Below, one piece after another: positions 8,031 to 13,342 of a stretch of 41,370 bases of DNA (position 1 is its first letter; each line of letters starts with the position of its first letter). Source of the stretch: Sulfurimonas sp. (GTDB taxonomy: Bacteria > Campylobacterota > Campylobacteria > Campylobacterales > Sulfurimonadaceae); contig NZ_JABIOQ010000030.1 in assembly GCF_018698455.1 (NCBI RefSeq), positions 1 to 41,370 of the forward strand. The letters run 5' to 3'. Under the pieces are notes generated by a model. The model saw nothing but the letters and a program-made list of their open reading frames with translations. It was not told where the DNA came from and did not search any database. The translations under genes were made by a program, and so were the position numbers.

Positions 8031-8519
8031 TTGAGTAACTTTATTAGTTTAATTGTCAGGTATATTTCATATCTGACAGCATTCACTCTAGTTCTATTGG
8101 TGGCATTAATAATCTTTGATGCAACTAATCGTTATCTGTTCTCCTCAGGTTCAACAGCACTTCAAGAGTTAGAATGGCATTTTTTTGATGTTGTTATGCT
8201 TCTTAGTCTTGCTTACACTTTAAAACATAATGCTCATGTTAGAGTAGATATTTTTTATGATAACTTCTCTTTAAAAACACAGACTCTTATCAACATACTC
8301 TCAGTTGTTTTTTTCATACTCCCATTCTCATTTTTAATCGTTTATATTAGTATAGGTTTTGTGGAATTGAGTTTTATTCAAAATGAAATGTCATCAGACC
8401 CGGGAGGTCTCTCATACCGATGGATAGTGAAATCTCTTATGCCTCTCTCATTTATCTTTTTATCTCTGCAGGCTTTTAAAATACTGGTAATTGAAGTAAA
8501 AAAATGGAGGTCACTATGA
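8031..8519 (+). CDS. dctQ: TRAP transporter small permease (DctQ family)
   Basis: A 162-residue membrane protein with four hydrophobic segments and the DctQ-type signature (DATNRYLFSSGSTALQELEW in the first third; HNAHVRVDIFYD in the middle). It is the small subunit of a tripartite ATP-independent periplasmic transporter for organic acids or related anions. The start is TTG at 8031; the earlier ATGs are in frames that stop at once, and GGA at 8018-8020 is the only nearby RBS-like sequence. The end overlaps dctM by 4 bases. No gene for the periplasmic binding subunit (DctP) is adjacent. Confidence 0.85.
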   Translation: MSNFISLIVRYISYLTAFTLVLLVALIIFDATNRYLFSSGSTALQELEWHFFDVVMLLSLAYTLKHNAHVRVDIFYDNFSLKTQTLINILSVVFFILPFSFLIVYISIGFVELSFIQNEMSSDPGGLSYRWIVKSLMPLSFIFLSLQAFKILVIEVKKWRSL

Positions 8520-9799
8520 TAGCCTTAGTAATGTTTGTAGTAGCACTGCTTCTTTTACTGACGGGTATCCCCGTTGCATTTGCTTTTGGTGGTGTTGCGA
8601 TGATGTTTGCATTTATCGTTCCTGACTTAGGTTTTGATGTGTTTAATATTTTACCATTTAGAATTTATGGAATTATGAACAATACAACACTTATGGCAGT
8701 TCCACTGTTTATAATGATGGGTCTCATACTAGAAAAGTCAGGCATGGCAGAGAAACTCCTCATCTCAATGAGTAGTATGTTTAGAGGTGTTCGTGGTGGA
8801 CTTGGAGTGAGTGTTGTTTTAGTTGGAGCTATACTTGCAGCTTCAACAGGAATAGTCTCTGCCTCAGTCGTTATGATGAGTGTGATAGCACTTCCATTAA
8901 TGATAAACGCAGGCTATGATAAATCTCTAGCAAGTGGGACAGTAGCCGCTTCAGGAACACTAGGACAAATCATACCACCTTCTATTATTCTTATCATACT
9001 TGGTGATGTTATGAGTGTTAGTGTTGGTGACTTGTTTATGGGTGCCGTTTTACCAGGTATGACACTTGTAAGTCTTTATGTGACATATATCCTAATACGA
9101 GCTTATATTAAAAAAGAAGATGCCCCTACAATGCAACCGCTGGAGAACACTAACTTTATTGATTTATTAAAAGCCATTATTCCCCCTATTTTACTAATGG
9201 TGAGTGTTTTGGGAAGCATATTCGCGGGAATAGCTTCTCCTACGGAATCTGCCGCGTTTGGAGTACTGGGTGGTGTCTTACTTTCAGGCATGAACAAAAC
9301 TCTTAATTATGAAATGATAAAGTACGCTCTGTTTGAAACGATGAAACTCACGGGAATGATATTTATGATACTCATAGGTGCAACCGCGTTTAGCCTAGTT
9401 TTTAATGAACTTGGTGGAAGTGACATCATCTTAGAGTTTTTTAGTGAAGATATTGGCAATGTATGGGCTTTTATAGCACTTTCAATGCTGAGTATCTTTA
9501 TACTCGGTTTCTTCATCGACTTCATTGAAATAAGCTTCATTATAGTGCCTATACTTGTTCCAGTTATGGCCGCGTTTGGCATAGACCCCATATGGTTCGC
9601 AATTTTAATAGCAATGAATCTACAAGCATCATTTTTAACACCACCCTTTGGCCTTTCACTTTTCTTTCTAAAAGGTGCTGCAGGAAATAGTGTGAGTACA
9701 ATTCAAATTTATAAAGGTATAATCCCATTTATACTTTTACAACTTTTAGCACTAGGTTTGGTTATAGTTTTTCCAGATTTAGTTTTCGCATTTTTGTAG
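8516..9799 (+). CDS. dctM: TRAP transporter large permease (DctM family)
   Basis: The membrane-spanning transport subunit of a TRAP transporter, 427 residues with about 12 hydrophobic segments. Family motifs include GIPVAFAFGG near the N-terminus, ASTGIVSASVVMMSVIALP, SGTLGQIIPPSIILI and the C-terminal ASFLTPPFGLSLFFLKG. I place the start at 8516: GGAGG (8506-8510) sits 5 bases upstream and the ATG forms an ATGA overlap with the dctQ stop. An earlier in-frame ATG at 8504 would place that site inside the gene. The 3' third is duplicated downstream as a pseudogene (12620-12990). The substrate cannot be deduced without DctP. Confidence 0.9.
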   Translation: MIALVMFVVALLLLLTGIPVAFAFGGVAMMFAFIVPDLGFDVFNILPFRIYGIMNNTTLMAVPLFIMMGLILEKSGMAEKLLISMSSMFRGVRGGLGVSVVLVGAILAASTGIVSASVVMMSVIALPLMINAGYDKSLASGTVAASGTLGQIIPPSIILIILGDVMSVSVGDLFMGAVLPGMTLVSLYVTYILIRAYIKKEDAPTMQPLENTNFIDLLKAIIPPILLMVSVLGSIFAGIASPTESAAFGVLGGVLLSGMNKTLNYEMIKYALFETMKLTGMIFMILIGATAFSLVFNELGGSDIILEFFSEDIGNVWAFIALSMLSIFILGFFIDFIEISFIIVPILVPVMAAFGIDPIWFAILIAMNLQASFLTPPFGLSLFFLKGAAGNSVSTIQIYKGIIPFILLQLLALGLVIVFPDLVFAFL

Positions 9800-9911
9800 A
9801 ATTATGATAATAATTTTAGTAGAAGTAAAAAAAAGAAGTTGATGAGATGTATAAAAATAATAGTCCTAATAGGATTGGTATTTTATTAAAGTTTTCAATG
9901 TTCCCCACATC
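9428..9911 (+). repeat. direct repeat, upstream copy (dctM 3' end plus next-gene stub)
   Basis: Homologous to 12620-13056. The copy comprises the last third of intact dctM, its stop, a spacer, and a decayed stub of the thiamine-binding gene. Within the dctM part, by eye, 9428-9600 is about 87% identical to the partner and 9601-9799 about 98% (three differences). The spacer after the stop is much less conserved. The 2.7 kb between the two copies holds the DUF4384 and caspase genes. Confidence 0.9.
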
Positions 9912-9930
9912 AGCTAAAGCGTATTTTTAA
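9871..9930 (+). pseudogene. stub of the thiamine-binding (MTH1187-family) gene
   Basis: In one frame this reads ILLKFSMFPTSAKAYF and then stops (9928-9930). The first part matches VLLEFSMFPTSPDG at the start of the intact gene at 13016. An AGGAT matching the intact gene's RBS is still visible at 9871-9875, but the ATG is gone and homology ends at about 9911. It is the decayed 5' end of the neighbour gene, carried by the same duplication that copied the end of dctM, and shows that dctM and the thiamine-binding gene were once adjacent. Confidence 0.8.
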
Positions 9931-9975
9931 CACCTTATATTTTTTATGTTGTTAACTATAATTTTTAAATAAAAC

Positions 9976-10938
9976 TTATTTTCTGATTTTTATTTCATAT
10001 GTAGAAAATTTAAACTCATTAAGAAGTGAAATTAATTCATCAAAATTGTAATTCGATTCGTCCAATAAATTCTCGTCAACATTTTCAAACTTATGAAGTT
10101 TAATGGGTGTTGGAGAATAAAGTGCTACATACAGTTCTTTAATAGATTTATTATAAGGATTTACAATTTTAAAACTATCTTCATTTTTTATATTCGGAAA
10201 TAAAAATGATTTATCTGACTTTTTATTTGCTAATAGTAAGCCTACTTTACCACTGTGCTCAACATAAAGAATTGAGATAAATCCATTCTTCTTATGTGCT
10301 ATATTAAAAAACATATCATCATTTTCAATATATATGTTTTTATTTGGTTTTATTGAAATTAAGTTTGTATTTTGATTTGAAAATAGTTTATAAAAATTTT
10401 CAATATTAATTGGCAATAAAATATCTTTATACTTTAGTTGCCATAAATTATTTTTTCTAATAACTTTGTAATTTAGTTTTGCTTTTAGCTCTTTATTTAA
10501 CTCTTTTAATAATGAAGTATTTTTTAGATAATTATTTTGTGTTTCATTTTGAAGGTTGCTTGGTAGTAGCTTTTTTAATTTTACATCTAAAGGAGAATTG
10601 TCATATTTTGCAGCTACATACCAAATAGAGTTTTTTTGTTCAATTTTTATAAATTCAACACCACTTAAAACAGCTTTTGAATTTGTTTTTAAAGATAATG
10701 ATGAATTTGTTTTAACATTAACATTGTTATCTATCGTTGACATATCAAAGGATGTATCAACACTTACTGATAGTGTATTAGCTATATCAGCAAGAGCATT
10801 TTTTTTTGCTTCTTGTAAGTTTTTACTGATGCCATAACCTATAATGTCACAATTTTTATCATGTTTTATTTGGTAGAGCCATAATGGATTTGCAAACATG
10901 ATAAGAGGGGTGAAAATCACTAATAATATTTTTTTCAT
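9976..10938 (-). CDS. secreted LPP20-like / DUF4384 protein, caspase partner
   Basis: A 320-residue protein with a cleavable signal peptide (1-16, ending MFAN). Residues about 28-120 resemble the LPP20/SIMPL-type fold: GYGISKNLQEAKKNALADIA followed by V-rich strands and a segment ending VAAKYDN. Residues about 195-280 look like DUF4384: FFNIAHKKNGFISILYVEHS, then GKVGLLL and SFLFPN, the pattern of a beta-rich domain often found next to or fused with caspase-like proteases. It is divergent from the caspase lipoprotein gene, 202 bases apart, so the two are probably co-regulated and act together in the periplasm. Very AT-rich. Domain assignments are from pattern memory; the exact function is unknown. 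Confidence 0.7.
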   Translation of the reverse strand: MKKILLVIFTPLIMFANPLWLYQIKHDKNCDIIGYGISKNLQEAKKNALADIANTLSVSVDTSFDMSTIDNNVNVKTNSSLSLKTNSKAVLSGVEFIKIEQKNSIWYVAAKYDNSPLDVKLKKLLPSNLQNETQNNYLKNTSLLKELNKELKAKLNYKVIRKNNLWQLKYKDILLPINIENFYKLFSNQNTNLISIKPNKNIYIENDDMFFNIAHKKNGFISILYVEHSGKVGLLLANKKSDKSFLFPNIKNEDSFKIVNPYNKSIKELYVALYSPTPIKLHKFENVDENLLDESNYNFDELISLLNEFKFSTYEIKIRK

Positions 10939-10977
10939 TAATATAAAAGAACCTTTTTATTACAATAAATTGAGTGA

Positions 10978-10983
10978 ATTATA
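10978..10983 (-). promoter_or_regulatory. -10 element for the DUF4384 gene
   Basis: The minus strand reads TATAAT at 10983-10978, about 40 bases before the ATG at 10938, in a very AT-rich tract. An AAAAGG RBS-like site lies about 10 bases before the start. No clear -35 is seen, which is usual for this phylum. Confidence 0.5.
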
Positions 10984-11103
10984 TCAATCAAATATTCAAA
11001 CATACTTAAATTAGTATAAATAAAATATATTTTTTAGAGAGTCAAGTCTCTTATTTTTTAATAAGAAAGTAGAATTTACTAGTTAAATTTAAGATAGTTT
11101 TAT

Positions 11104-11109
11104 TAAAAT
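11104..11109 (+). promoter_or_regulatory. possible -10 element for the caspase gene
   Basis: TAAAAT lies 31 bases before the ATG at 11141, with TAAGGAAT as ribosome binding site about 6 bases before the start. Together with the minus-strand -10 at 10983-10978, the 202-base gap would be a back-to-back promoter region. No inverted repeat of note is seen in it. Confidence 0.4.
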
Positions 11110-11140
11110 GTCAAAGATTAATATTAAATAAGGAATCTTA

Positions 11141-12586
11141 ATGTTAAATATTAATGTTATCGGTACATTGTTTGTTCTTTTAGTTTTTTCAGGATGTTCT
11201 GTAAAAAATATTGATGCTTCGTTCAGTTATAAACCACAGAAAAAGATATCAGAGGATGTTAACAATAGAATAGCTTTTATCTCTAAATTTGAAGTAGACG
11301 ATACATATTTAGATGACTCCGGTGTTTCAGCTTTAAAGCTTTCTTTAGAAGAAACATTAAAAAGTAGCGGAATGTATTCAGCTGTTCAATACAACTATAA
11401 AAAATCTAATAAAAATACAGGTGTTGATGAATATCAATTTGTTATCAAACCAAGCTATACAAGAGACTTCAATTGGCTTATAAGCTGGCCTGGAGTTTAT
11501 CCTATGCCTGCATATTGGCCTTTACAGCAGTATCATTCTGATATTAGTTCCAGTGTCGAAATGATAGCTCTAATTGGCGGTAAAAAAATGACAAAAACTT
11601 TTACTGCAAATAAAGAAGTAGATGTTAGATTTTATGGATTTTTTAGAACATCCATTGTGGAAAAAAGCTTACAGCAAGTCATACGTAAAAATTTAAAGGA
11701 TTTTAAGAGCTATTTAGAAGGTGAAGCACGATTTGCAATTTTAGAAACTGCAAATAATCCAATTTATTATGCTGATAATAAATCGAATAAAAGTACAAGT
11801 ATCGGAAAGGCTAATGATATCAAGGGTATTATAAACCAATATGCTTTTAAGGAAACAAAAGCGAAAAATTTCGATTCATTTGCTTTGGTAATTGGTATTA
11901 ATGAGTATAAACAAAATACACCAGTTGAGTATGCTGATTTATCAGCAATGGCATTTAAAAGTCTAGCAGAAAAAACACTTGGCATCCCAAAAGAAAATAT
12001 TATTACTTTATTAAACGATGATGCTACATCCGGGCAGATAAAAGCAAAAATTGAACTTGTGAAAGAGTTGTCAGATGCTAAGGGAAACATTTATGTATAT
12101 TTTGCAGGACATGGTGTACCAGGAAAAGATGGGAATACCTATATGCTTCCAAATGATATGAGTGCTGATTCAATTCATCTAGAGCCAAACTTACAGCTGG
12201 ATAAGATTTATGCAAAACTTTCTAAATCAAATGCTAAAAATGTATTTGTTTTTATGGATAGTTGCTTTAGTGGTAAAGATGATAAAGGTGGATTACTTTA
12301 TAAAGGAGTAGCCCCAGTTCTGAGAACAAATAAGACTATAATTAGAGGTAATAAATTAACAGTTATTACGGCTGGCTCCTCTACTGACTTTGCAAATGAT
12401 TACAAAGAGAAGAAACAACGTCTGTTTACATATTACCTAATAAAAGAATTAGCTGCAGGTAAGAAAAATTTACAAAAAGTGTATTCAACTATAAAAGGTA
12501 AAGTAAAAAGAACTTCTTTGATGAAAGGTATTGGCTATAAGCAAGTACCTCAAATTTTTGGAAATAGCAGAACAAATCTATTTTAA
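11141..12586 (+). CDS. lipoprotein with C-terminal caspase-like (C14) protease domain
   Basis: A 481-residue predicted lipoprotein: the signal sequence ends in the lipobox VFSGC with Cys19. Residues about 40-200 form a domain I do not firmly recognise (IAFISKFEVDD, an aromatic/proline stretch WPGVYPMPAYWP at 116-127), possibly like the TolB/LptE-type alpha-beta domains of outer-membrane lipoproteins. Residues about 245-400 are a caspase p20-like domain: ALVIGINEYK (248-257), YFAGHG with catalytic His324, and FMDSCFSG with catalytic Cys375. Both dyad residues are intact, so it should be an active cysteine protease, facing the periplasm and membrane-tethered. It is divergent from the DUF4384 gene and sits within a duplicated segment of a housekeeping operon. 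Substrate and trigger are unknown. Confidence 0.85.
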   Translation: MLNINVIGTLFVLLVFSGCSVKNIDASFSYKPQKKISEDVNNRIAFISKFEVDDTYLDDSGVSALKLSLEETLKSSGMYSAVQYNYKKSNKNTGVDEYQFVIKPSYTRDFNWLISWPGVYPMPAYWPLQQYHSDISSSVEMIALIGGKKMTKTFTANKEVDVRFYGFFRTSIVEKSLQQVIRKNLKDFKSYLEGEARFAILETANNPIYYADNKSNKSTSIGKANDIKGIINQYAFKETKAKNFDSFALVIGINEYKQNTPVEYADLSAMAFKSLAEKTLGIPKENIITLLNDDATSGQIKAKIELVKELSDAKGNIYVYFAGHGVPGKDGNTYMLPNDMSADSIHLEPNLQLDKIYAKLSKSNAKNVFVFMDSCFSGKDDKGGLLYKGVAPVLRTNKTIIRGNKLTVITAGSSTDFANDYKEKKQRLFTYYLIKELAAGKKNLQKVYSTIKGKVKRTSLMKGIGYKQVPQIFGNSRTNLF

Positions 12587-12619
12587 AAAAAATCTTCTTT
12601 AATTTTCAAAGCTAAAGTA

Positions 12620-12990
12620 ATCTTAGAGTTTTTAGTAAAGATATAGGGAGTGTATGGGCTTTTATAGCTCTTTCAATGCTGAGTATTTCCATAGTCGGTT
12701 TCTTTATCGACTTCATTGAAATTAGCTTCATCATAGTACCTATACTTGTTCCAGTTATAGCAACTTTTGGTATAGACCCTATATGATTTGTAATTTTAAT
12801 AGCAATGAATCTACAAGCATCATTTTTAACACCACCCTTCGGCCTTTCACTTTTCTTTCTAAAAGGTGCTGCAGGAAATAGTGTGAGTACAATTCAAATT
12901 TATAAAGGTATAATCCCATTTATACTTTTACAACTTATAGCACTAGGTTTGGTTATAGTTTTTCCAGATTTAGTTTTCGCGTTTTTGTAA
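12620..12990 (+). pseudogene. 3' fragment of dctM, inactivated
   Basis: Homologous to the last ~123 codons of dctM. It lacks the first two thirds, has lost one T in a T-run near 12630 (frameshift), and has an in-frame TGA at 12784-12786 where the intact copy has TGG (Trp). From 12805 on the frame is open and nearly identical to intact dctM, which could be mistaken for a 61-residue gene; no function is expected. Confidence 0.92.
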
Positions 12991-13056
12991 TAATTTAAAT
13001 TAAAAGGATATCAATATGTTAAGTGTTTTATTAGAGTTTTCAATGTTCCCTACATC
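12620..13056 (+). repeat. direct repeat, downstream copy (dead dctM 3' end plus intact gene start)
   Basis: Partner of 9428-9911. It begins abruptly with dctM sequence after AGCTAAAG (12610-12617), runs through the dctM stop and into the first 14 codons of the thiamine-binding gene. Downstream of 13056 only this copy continues, so this is the original junction with the rest of the operon. Confidence 0.9.
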
Positions 13057-13342
13057 TCCAGATGGAAGAGAAGGTGGATCTGTTTCCAAGCAAGTTAGTA
13101 AGATTATAGATGCGATAGACAAGTCAGGAGTTCCATACCAACTTACTCCAATGGGTACAGTTATAGAAGCTCCAAATATGAGAGAAGCTCTTGATGTTAT
13201 CGCTCTTGCTTATGAGCAAGTGAGTGATTGTGAGAGAGTGTACTCTTCACTAAAGTTTGACATTCGTCAAAACTGTGAAAATAGACTCACATCTAAAATA
13301 GACTCAGTTGAAAAAGTTTTAGGTAGAAAAGTAAATCACTAA
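13016..13342 (+). CDS. thiamine-binding MTH1187-family protein (DUF77)
   Basis: A 108-residue protein of the MTH1187/YkoF-like family (PF01910), small ferredoxin-like domains that bind thiamine or related compounds, or act as unknown regulators. Family features are FSMFPTS at 8-14, the middle PYQLTPMGTVIEAP and the helical YEQVSDCERVYSSLKFDIR. RBS AAAGGATATCAAT precedes the ATG. It is followed after 12 bases by the HIT gene. Before the insertion it would have followed dctM directly, as the stub at 9871-9930 shows. The family assignment is good; the biochemical role is uncertain. Confidence 0.85.
   Translation: MLSVLLEFSMFPTSPDGREGGSVSKQVSKIIDAIDKSGVPYQLTPMGTVIEAPNMREALDVIALAYEQVSDCERVYSSLKFDIRQNCENRLTSKIDSVEKVLGRKVNH

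Follow-up and report, generated by a model that had tools for sequence, protein, structure and literature searches.

Why does a bacterial protein with a caspase domain carry a lipoprotein signal, and what is the LPP20-type protein beside it for? The question is raised by two divergent genes in NZ_JABIOQ010000030.1, a contig of Sulfurimonas sp. (assembly GCF_018698455.1; host genome 2.23 Mb) whose positions 1 to 41,370, analysed whole, are called the window here. Discussion of bacterial caspase homologues has centred mainly on cytoplasmic proteases of cell death or immunity. We give about an even chance to a different reading, that the locus encodes an extracytoplasmic two-protein protease module in which an envelope-facing caspase is docked or gated by its partner and cleaves an envelope protein. 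Its grounds lie in sequence comparison and structure prediction, and are as follows: a lipobox protein of the C14 family with its catalytic dyad and predicted fold, an export-like partner, conserved pairing, an apparently changed S1 pocket, varied N-terminal domains and a duplicated junction around the pair.

Both open reading frames (ORFs) described in the original prediction are present and divergent, 202 bases apart (Table 1), and the lipobox Cys19 and the catalytic residues His324 and Cys375 that it named are all found in the caspase sequence. The protein is a member of Peptidase C14, its Pfam match (Peptidase_C14, E = 1.5e-14, 54.7 bits) exceeding the cut-off of 21.4 bits by 33 bits. The expected caspase fold is predicted by AlphaFold2 (57 sequences) over about residues 225-481, with predicted local distance difference test (pLDDT) values mostly at or above 90 and dips to 73-79 around residues 381-400. 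The top Foldseek matches of this model are the MALT1 paracaspase (E = 7.7e-11) and Geobacter GSU0716 (3bij), and in VIA-align comparisons the Z value is 22.5 for plant metacaspase-4 and 22.0 for MALT1; a PDB search with the single protein sequence returned nothing at E <= 0.1. The His324/Cys375 dyad is invariant in 57/57 aligned rows and in 83/83 related caspase domains. In 78 of these 83 domains the catalytic Cys is the only cysteine, which suits an oxidizing compartment; three other C14 proteins have one, four and six cysteines over their whole lengths. An export-like N-terminus is found in 69 of the 81 complete caspase ORFs and a lipobox in 37 (the calls come from a simple hydrophobicity and lipobox heuristic, not SignalP, and five incomplete or fragmentary ORFs were skipped). 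Because export is the rule in this group, the lipoprotein tether, previously called unusual, is not so within the subfamily. The window protein is probably a lipid-anchored, exported caspase-type protease.

Would such a protease cleave where metacaspases do? In T. brucei MC2, Asp95 and Asp211 matter for accepting basic substrate residues, and both S1 Asp residues are described in the same source as highly conserved among prokaryotic pseudo-orthocaspases (PMC6426788). In our hidden Markov model (HMM) alignment, Ser268 of the window caspase aligns with the Asp of the 'ND' motif in metacaspase-4 and -9, which is the Asp95 equivalent. Asp373 is kept in 83/83 domains and lies two residues before the catalytic Cys (residue 213 in the T. 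brucei enzyme), on which ground we equate it with Asp211. Across the 83 domains the Ser268 position holds Ser in 73, Thr in three and Asp in seven, the seven being exactly the Nitrospinota/Myxococcota clade (outgroup); in three other members of C14, of which the same genome supplies one and relatives two, it is Asp in two and Glu in one. The two acidic S1 residues of an Arg/Lys-type metacaspase or orthocaspase are thus not both present, as judged by sequence alignment and not by structural superposition. With one S1 Asp lost a changed P1 preference is predicted, and the cleavage specificity probably differs from that of metacaspases. The seven caspases that retain the Asp (loci L152, L159, L160, L161, L167, L168 and L172) have a smaller, different neighbour, shown to contain DUF4384 in L152.

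The partner had been predicted to be an LPP20-like/DUF4384 protein. The first part holds (LPP20, PF02169, E = 3.3e-8, 34.3 bits against a cut-off of 25.9) and the second does not formally, since the DUF4384 profile stays below its cut-off; for that reason we call the C-terminus DUF4384-like. Weak DUF4384 matches occupy the same place in partner homologues, and in the closest paralogue of the window partner the score is 26.4 bits, just under the cut-off of 27. By eye, the N-terminus resembles a signal peptide and has no lipobox, so the partner lacks the lipoprotein signal of the LPP20 family. Its model has a pLDDT of 86. A single Foldseek match reaches E 0.001 or below: the LPP20 part is similar to 9hmf_A, a chain of the flagellar periplasmic scaffold of C. 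jejuni (E = 6.4e-4, target TM 0.53, 14% identity). HP1454 (4kzs) matches by profile at E = 2.7e-15 and more weakly by fold (E = 0.032). The C-terminal beta-sandwich has weak Ig-like fold matches.

Is the partner a dedicated one, as was claimed? In a survey of 397 genomes of the class, 13 of the 17 partner matches above 100 bits adjoin a caspase match, as judged by reading coordinates; because scoring was limited to the best 7 and 5 candidates per genome from a first look, further copies may have escaped it. In two of the 13 pairs the caspase looks damaged (an internal stop in genome G374, only 97 amino acids open in G356). A wider scan of named genomes, covering the best 80 of 138 loci, many of them contigs of metagenome-assembled genomes (MAGs) that may be misbinned, found a partner within 1.1 kb of the caspase in 49 loci from several phyla. 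Caspase is followed by partner in 36 of these (overlapping or with a gap of at most 20 bp in 26) and partner by caspase in eight (including L144, where the contig end cuts the partner); three are divergent (L101, L106 and L165), one is convergent, and the last, L127 (partner at 473 bp), was added back to the other 48 after an ORF-overlap filter had dropped it. A 54-bit fragment 3.4 kb away in L169 was not counted as a pair. The divergent order of the window, noted in the original prediction, is therefore atypical: in 12 of the 13 class pairs both genes run the same way and the caspase leads, the window alone being divergent, and only 3/80 loci of the wider scan are divergent. By their records, the hosts include Vibrio, Shewanella, Photobacterium and Desulfoluna strains with isolate or complete genomes, so the spread of the pair is not only a MAG artefact; scores of the partners in Desulfoluna are low, at 86-106 bits. 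Distances among the partners and among the caspases are correlated over 51 pairs (Mantel r = 0.61, with 0/999 permutations as high), and shared ancestry contributes to this value. The pairing counts rule out chance adjacency, with the two genes found together in several phyla of bacteria, and the case for a pair is somewhat stronger than the original prediction had it.

The part of the lipoprotein that precedes the caspase domain had been described as an unknown domain. This is not wholly so, as it matches NF047770 (LBF_2127 putative lipoprotein; E = 4.8e-21) over residues 12-180, but at 75.3 bits it stays below the whole-protein cut-off of 150. Searches of 60 relatives, the 397 class genomes and all ORFs of the 80 loci with this domain matched only the window itself, and the best PDB match had an E value of 1.1. 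The closest paralogue (contig C7 of the same genome) has only a short lipobox stub in its place before a caspase domain that is 79% identical, with a partner that is 55% identical. Pfam scans of 60 of the 81 complete caspase ORFs found C14 in 44 (E <= 0.001), Lcl_C in six, ankyrin repeats in four and WD40 in three. N-terminal domains are most likely exchangeable among these relatives. Some further observations concern these domains. Residues 81-300 of the caspase L058:8382-10040 (motif like FETTAEFNAR), to which Pfam assigns nothing, match 36 ORFs by phmmer, all of them caspases. Lcl_C (DUF1566), a target fold of diversity-generating retroelements, occurs not only in the six caspases (e.g. L043:9036-10844) but also in 7 of 108 neighbouring ORFs scanned (from 138, after exclusion by hand of 30, which were near-repeats from Vibrio and Desulfoluna loci, ORFs that were short or doubtful, and a single very long ORF). 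Caspase-domain matches number five in the genome of the window (including contigs C7, C31, C45 and C47) and ten in genome G006; the other 58 of the 60 genomes searched have none, one or two.

How did the pair come to lie where it does? Part of dctM (bases 925-1295) recurs to the right of the pair, and to its left lies sequence similar (91% identity) to the beginning of the thiamine-binding-protein gene. The pair is thus flanked by two copies of the junction between dctM and that gene, with one intact copy of each of these genes remaining (Table 1). These copies differ at 26/362 bases; of the 23 changed codons 14 are synonymous and nine are not, one being a stop, a pattern by which some of the divergence may predate the decay of the fragment, under selection and possibly in another strain. 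The dctM loci of 12 relatives (4.5-6 kb each) had no tblastn match to caspase or partner at E 1e-4. The thiamine-binding gene lies within 1.4 kb after dctM in three of the 12 and was not found there in nine, and the interval looks variable because the relatives differ in content between these genes. The G+C content of the pair is 0.270 against 0.329 for the window, and 3/194 sliding windows are as low, a count that takes in those lying over the pair. At the nucleotide level the window caspase and its C7 paralogue show patchy similarity (0.63-0.93 per 20-codon block over the caspase domain minus its last four codons), which does not amount to proof of gene conversion. The simplest reading would be that recombination integrated a DNA carrying a junction fragment. 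A stretch of the left spacer, 9809-9838, resembles the end of dctQ (8480-8509; 77% over 30 nt), perhaps by chance.

In the two-protein module that we favor, the caspase would be acylated on Cys19 and face the periplasm, the LPP20 domain of the partner would dock or oligomerize at the envelope, and its Ig-like domain would bind or gate the caspase. The N-terminal domain would provide location or a trigger, and once triggered, His324 and Cys375 would cut a protein of the envelope, though not at the Arg/Lys site classical for metacaspases. Regulated envelope processing or remodelling would be the likeliest purpose, and killing of the own cell under attack the next likeliest. With mostly exported-looking members, one Cys, an altered S1 pocket and a partner gene that recurs, this group would offer a defined protein pair for a different envelope job. 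A more far-reaching proposal, which we regard as doubtful, is a multi-phylum family of periplasmic caspases with altered specificity, exchangeable sensors and gating by an LPP20 ring or scaffold, which in Vibrionaceae and Shewanella acts with a lytic transglycosylase to couple envelope sensing to protein cleavage and cell-wall opening.

Several findings weigh against the two-protein module. The DUF4384 match of the window partner is faint (PF14326, E = 0.0093, 16.5 bits), its fold matches outside the LPP20 part are weak, and AlphaFold2 pLDDT is below 50, low confidence, for most of the N-terminal domain of the caspase. In the class survey four partners are unpaired (G383, G356 (C208), G164 (C34) and G433; around those of G383 and G164, the stretches searched by tblastn contained no caspase), as are 10 of the 23 caspase matches above 100 bits. 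No LPP20-type partner is present in 31/80 loci of the wider scan, so the caspase may not always need one; this number is an upper bound because some contigs end near the gene, and in seven of the 31 a smaller downstream neighbour of another protein cluster is present (the one in L152 matches DUF4384 at 3.4e-16). Cell-wall enzymes are only a minority of the 108 neighbours (SLT 5, Mltc_N 5, Glucosaminidase 2). In the caspase tree the window groups with C7 (supports 100/97 and 92/88 in two trees) and grouping with L095 is rejected (approximately unbiased test, p-AU 0.009), whereas in the partner tree it groups with L095 (73/91, not firm; p-AU 0.044 for C7 grouping). The partly different nearest relatives of the two genes weaken strict co-inheritance; the L095 grouping was tested after its high identity was noticed, and the caspase tree used for the p-AU test has a very long branch, L106.

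Could the pair instead be a suicide or defence module, its caspase sensing phage entry or envelope attack and killing the cell or its neighbours? PADLOC, run on the two window ORFs, matched only its generic caspase profile (2.3e-14), a related pair on the Sulfurimonas aquatica plasmid pSULFM1 lies in a stretch that also holds Fic and HipA genes, the distribution is patchy (a caspase match at E <= 1e-10 in 18/397 class genomes), and PMC3501461 proposes surface programmed cell death or fratricide for exported metacaspases. We nevertheless find it rather unlikely, as no defence gene recurs among the 108 neighbours (the top PADLOC family is in 2/108, among the 25 of 65 families listed), no gasdermin is among the 25 of 145 Pfam families listed for them, and the caspase domain had no match in 50,697 phage records. 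Constitutive trimming of exported substrates, with the partner as adaptor, by a maturation protease for surface or flagellar/LPP20-type structures is a less probable idea still. It could draw on the likeness of the partner's LPP20 part to a flagellar scaffold and on the extra LPP20-type proteins near the L103 and L120 pairs, but a patchy distribution, diverged multiple copies and differing N-terminal domains do not fit housekeeping, and the sole export-apparatus family among the Pfam families listed is Bac_export_2 (FlhB family), in 2/108 neighbours.

It is very unlikely that the window copy is a decaying insertion without present function: low G+C, duplicated flanks, odd gene order and mixed ancestry would agree with one, but neither ORF is interrupted or shortened, and every residue invariant in the 57 rows is retained in the caspase even though the flanks have diverged. 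Least probable of all is an idle receptor or scaffold whose caspase fold binds peptides without cutting because of the altered S1 pocket. Ser in place of the S1 Asp would suit such a role, but His and Cys are kept throughout and pseudo-orthocaspases have other residues at these positions (PMC6426788). A pseudo-caspase was rejected on account of the intact dyad in 83/83 domains.

How does the proposed module compare with known systems? Export of some metacaspases was already suggested in 2012 (PMC3501461); according to that study, by Asplund-Samuelsson, metacaspases are few in Epsilonproteobacteria, signal peptides may be present, and part of 671 sequences received an extracellular or membrane label. 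Prokaryotic metacaspases and orthocaspases share with the present group the p20 fold, the His/Cys dyad, the DSC motif and varied fused domains including WD40 (PMC3501461); here, in contrast, most members are export-like, many have a lipobox, the S1 Asp has become Ser or Thr, and a separate gene encodes an LPP20/DUF4384-like partner. Fusions of DUF4384 to caspases are mentioned in PMC6426788 and PMC7475262. The alphaproteobacterial pseudo-orthocaspases have p20 and DUF4384 in one chain and a trypsin-like domain (PMC6426788), whereas here the caspase and DUF4384-like parts are in two genes, the dyad is intact and there is no trypsin domain. Among the caspase-like effectors of conflict systems (PMC7159879), the EACC1-associated caspases (NF047832) are distantly similar in their caspase domain, at 68.8 bits against a cut-off of 140; the window caspase differs from them in its export-like N-terminus and its partner. 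MALT1, among the closest solved folds, is eukaryotic and has another domain context, and GSU0716, also among them, is a 285-residue chain in the solved-structure search. HP1454 and the C. jejuni scaffold have the N-terminal LPP20 domain in common with the window partner by profile and fold, but in the latter a DUF4384-like domain follows, the lipobox is absent and the gene is paired with a caspase. No description of a caspase/LPP20-type pair was recognized in the open-licence literature searched, preprints being outside its scope.

The features of the locus are collected in Table 1. Upstream of the pair lie a weakly Ysc84-like gene (below cut-off), a small membrane protein that is DctQ-like by eye, and dctM; on the 3' side the thiamine-binding-protein gene is followed by a HIT gene, an M23 peptidase and a molybdopterin oxidoreductase. 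A scan of 9780-13050 found 17 promoter-like sites, no excess over the 19.8 expected from shuffles, and no terminator.

Table 1. Coordinates of the caspase/LPP20-type pair and its flanking junction copies in the window.
Feature	Coordinates	Strand	Basis
C14 caspase-type lipoprotein (putative), 481 aa	11141..12586	+	Pfam, predicted fold, Foldseek, VIA-align; only two Cys, C19 (lipobox) and C375 (catalytic)
Signal peptide with terminal lipobox, Cys19 being the last codon	11141..11197	+	Sequence, heuristic
LBF_2127-like N-terminal domain (NF047770, best stretch residues 12-180) and linker	11198..11830	+	Profile match; low-confidence fold
Caspase domain with Ser268 (replacing S1 Asp), His324, Asp373 and Cys375	11849..12586	+	Alignments
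Predicted exported partner, 320 aa: LPP20 domain (residues 18-111), middle region, Ig-like DUF4384-like C-terminus	9976..10938	-	Profiles, model, Foldseek
Common upstream region of the divergent pair	10939..11140		Promoter scan of 9780-13050
Left junction copy: dctM 3' end, spacer, bases resembling thiamine-binding-protein gene start (9878-9911)	9428..9911	+	Sequence repeats
Right junction copy: dctM 3' fragment 12620-12989 (93% identical, in-frame stop), leading into the intact thiamine-binding-protein gene 13016-13342	12620..13056	+	Sequence repeats

Five loci of the wider scan (two Vibrio, Photobacterium indicum, Shewanella atlantica and one Gammaproteobacteria MAG) share one six-gene order: caspase, a ~220-aa unknown protein, partner, a ~400-430-aa protein, a ~150-aa protein and a ~250-275-aa unknown protein. 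In Vibrio chagasii the third of the additional proteins is a lytic transglycosylase (SLT 1e-23, Mltc_N 1.1e-7), which follows the partner and to whose cluster ORFs in 7/80 loci belong, and the ~150-aa protein has a weak likeness to LPP20 that stays below cut-off (E = 0.0025). In L098 the gene before the caspase encodes a glucosaminidase. Lcl_C, SLT and Mltc_N, together with DUF4384 (4), are the commonest Pfam families among the 108 neighbours. The cell-wall link holds in one branch and is not a rule. A defence island is rejected because no PADLOC family among those listed recurs, and a phage origin is rejected by the search of the 50,697 phage records and by viral contigs, where no more than four relatives, 27-31% identical, were found. 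Among 72,556 plasmid records, tblastn gave no match to the window partner and nine to the caspase domain, only that of S. aquatica being close (37.7%); the pair on pSULFM1 (L179, NZ_CP046073.1 15402-34109) is annotated 'caspase family protein' and 'LPP20 family lipoprotein', and a 'mobile mystery protein B' gene also lies near it.

A few minor observations were also made. The MAG contig of L131, whose label Helicobacter pylori PMSS1 looks doubtful, has two such caspases in tandem with a partner. Additional LPP20-type proteins are found near some pairs, as in L103 and L120. At L114:6759-7424 and L140:6744-7403, a HAD_2 phosphatase-like gene overlaps by 4 bases the partnerless Sulfurimonas caspase upstream of it.

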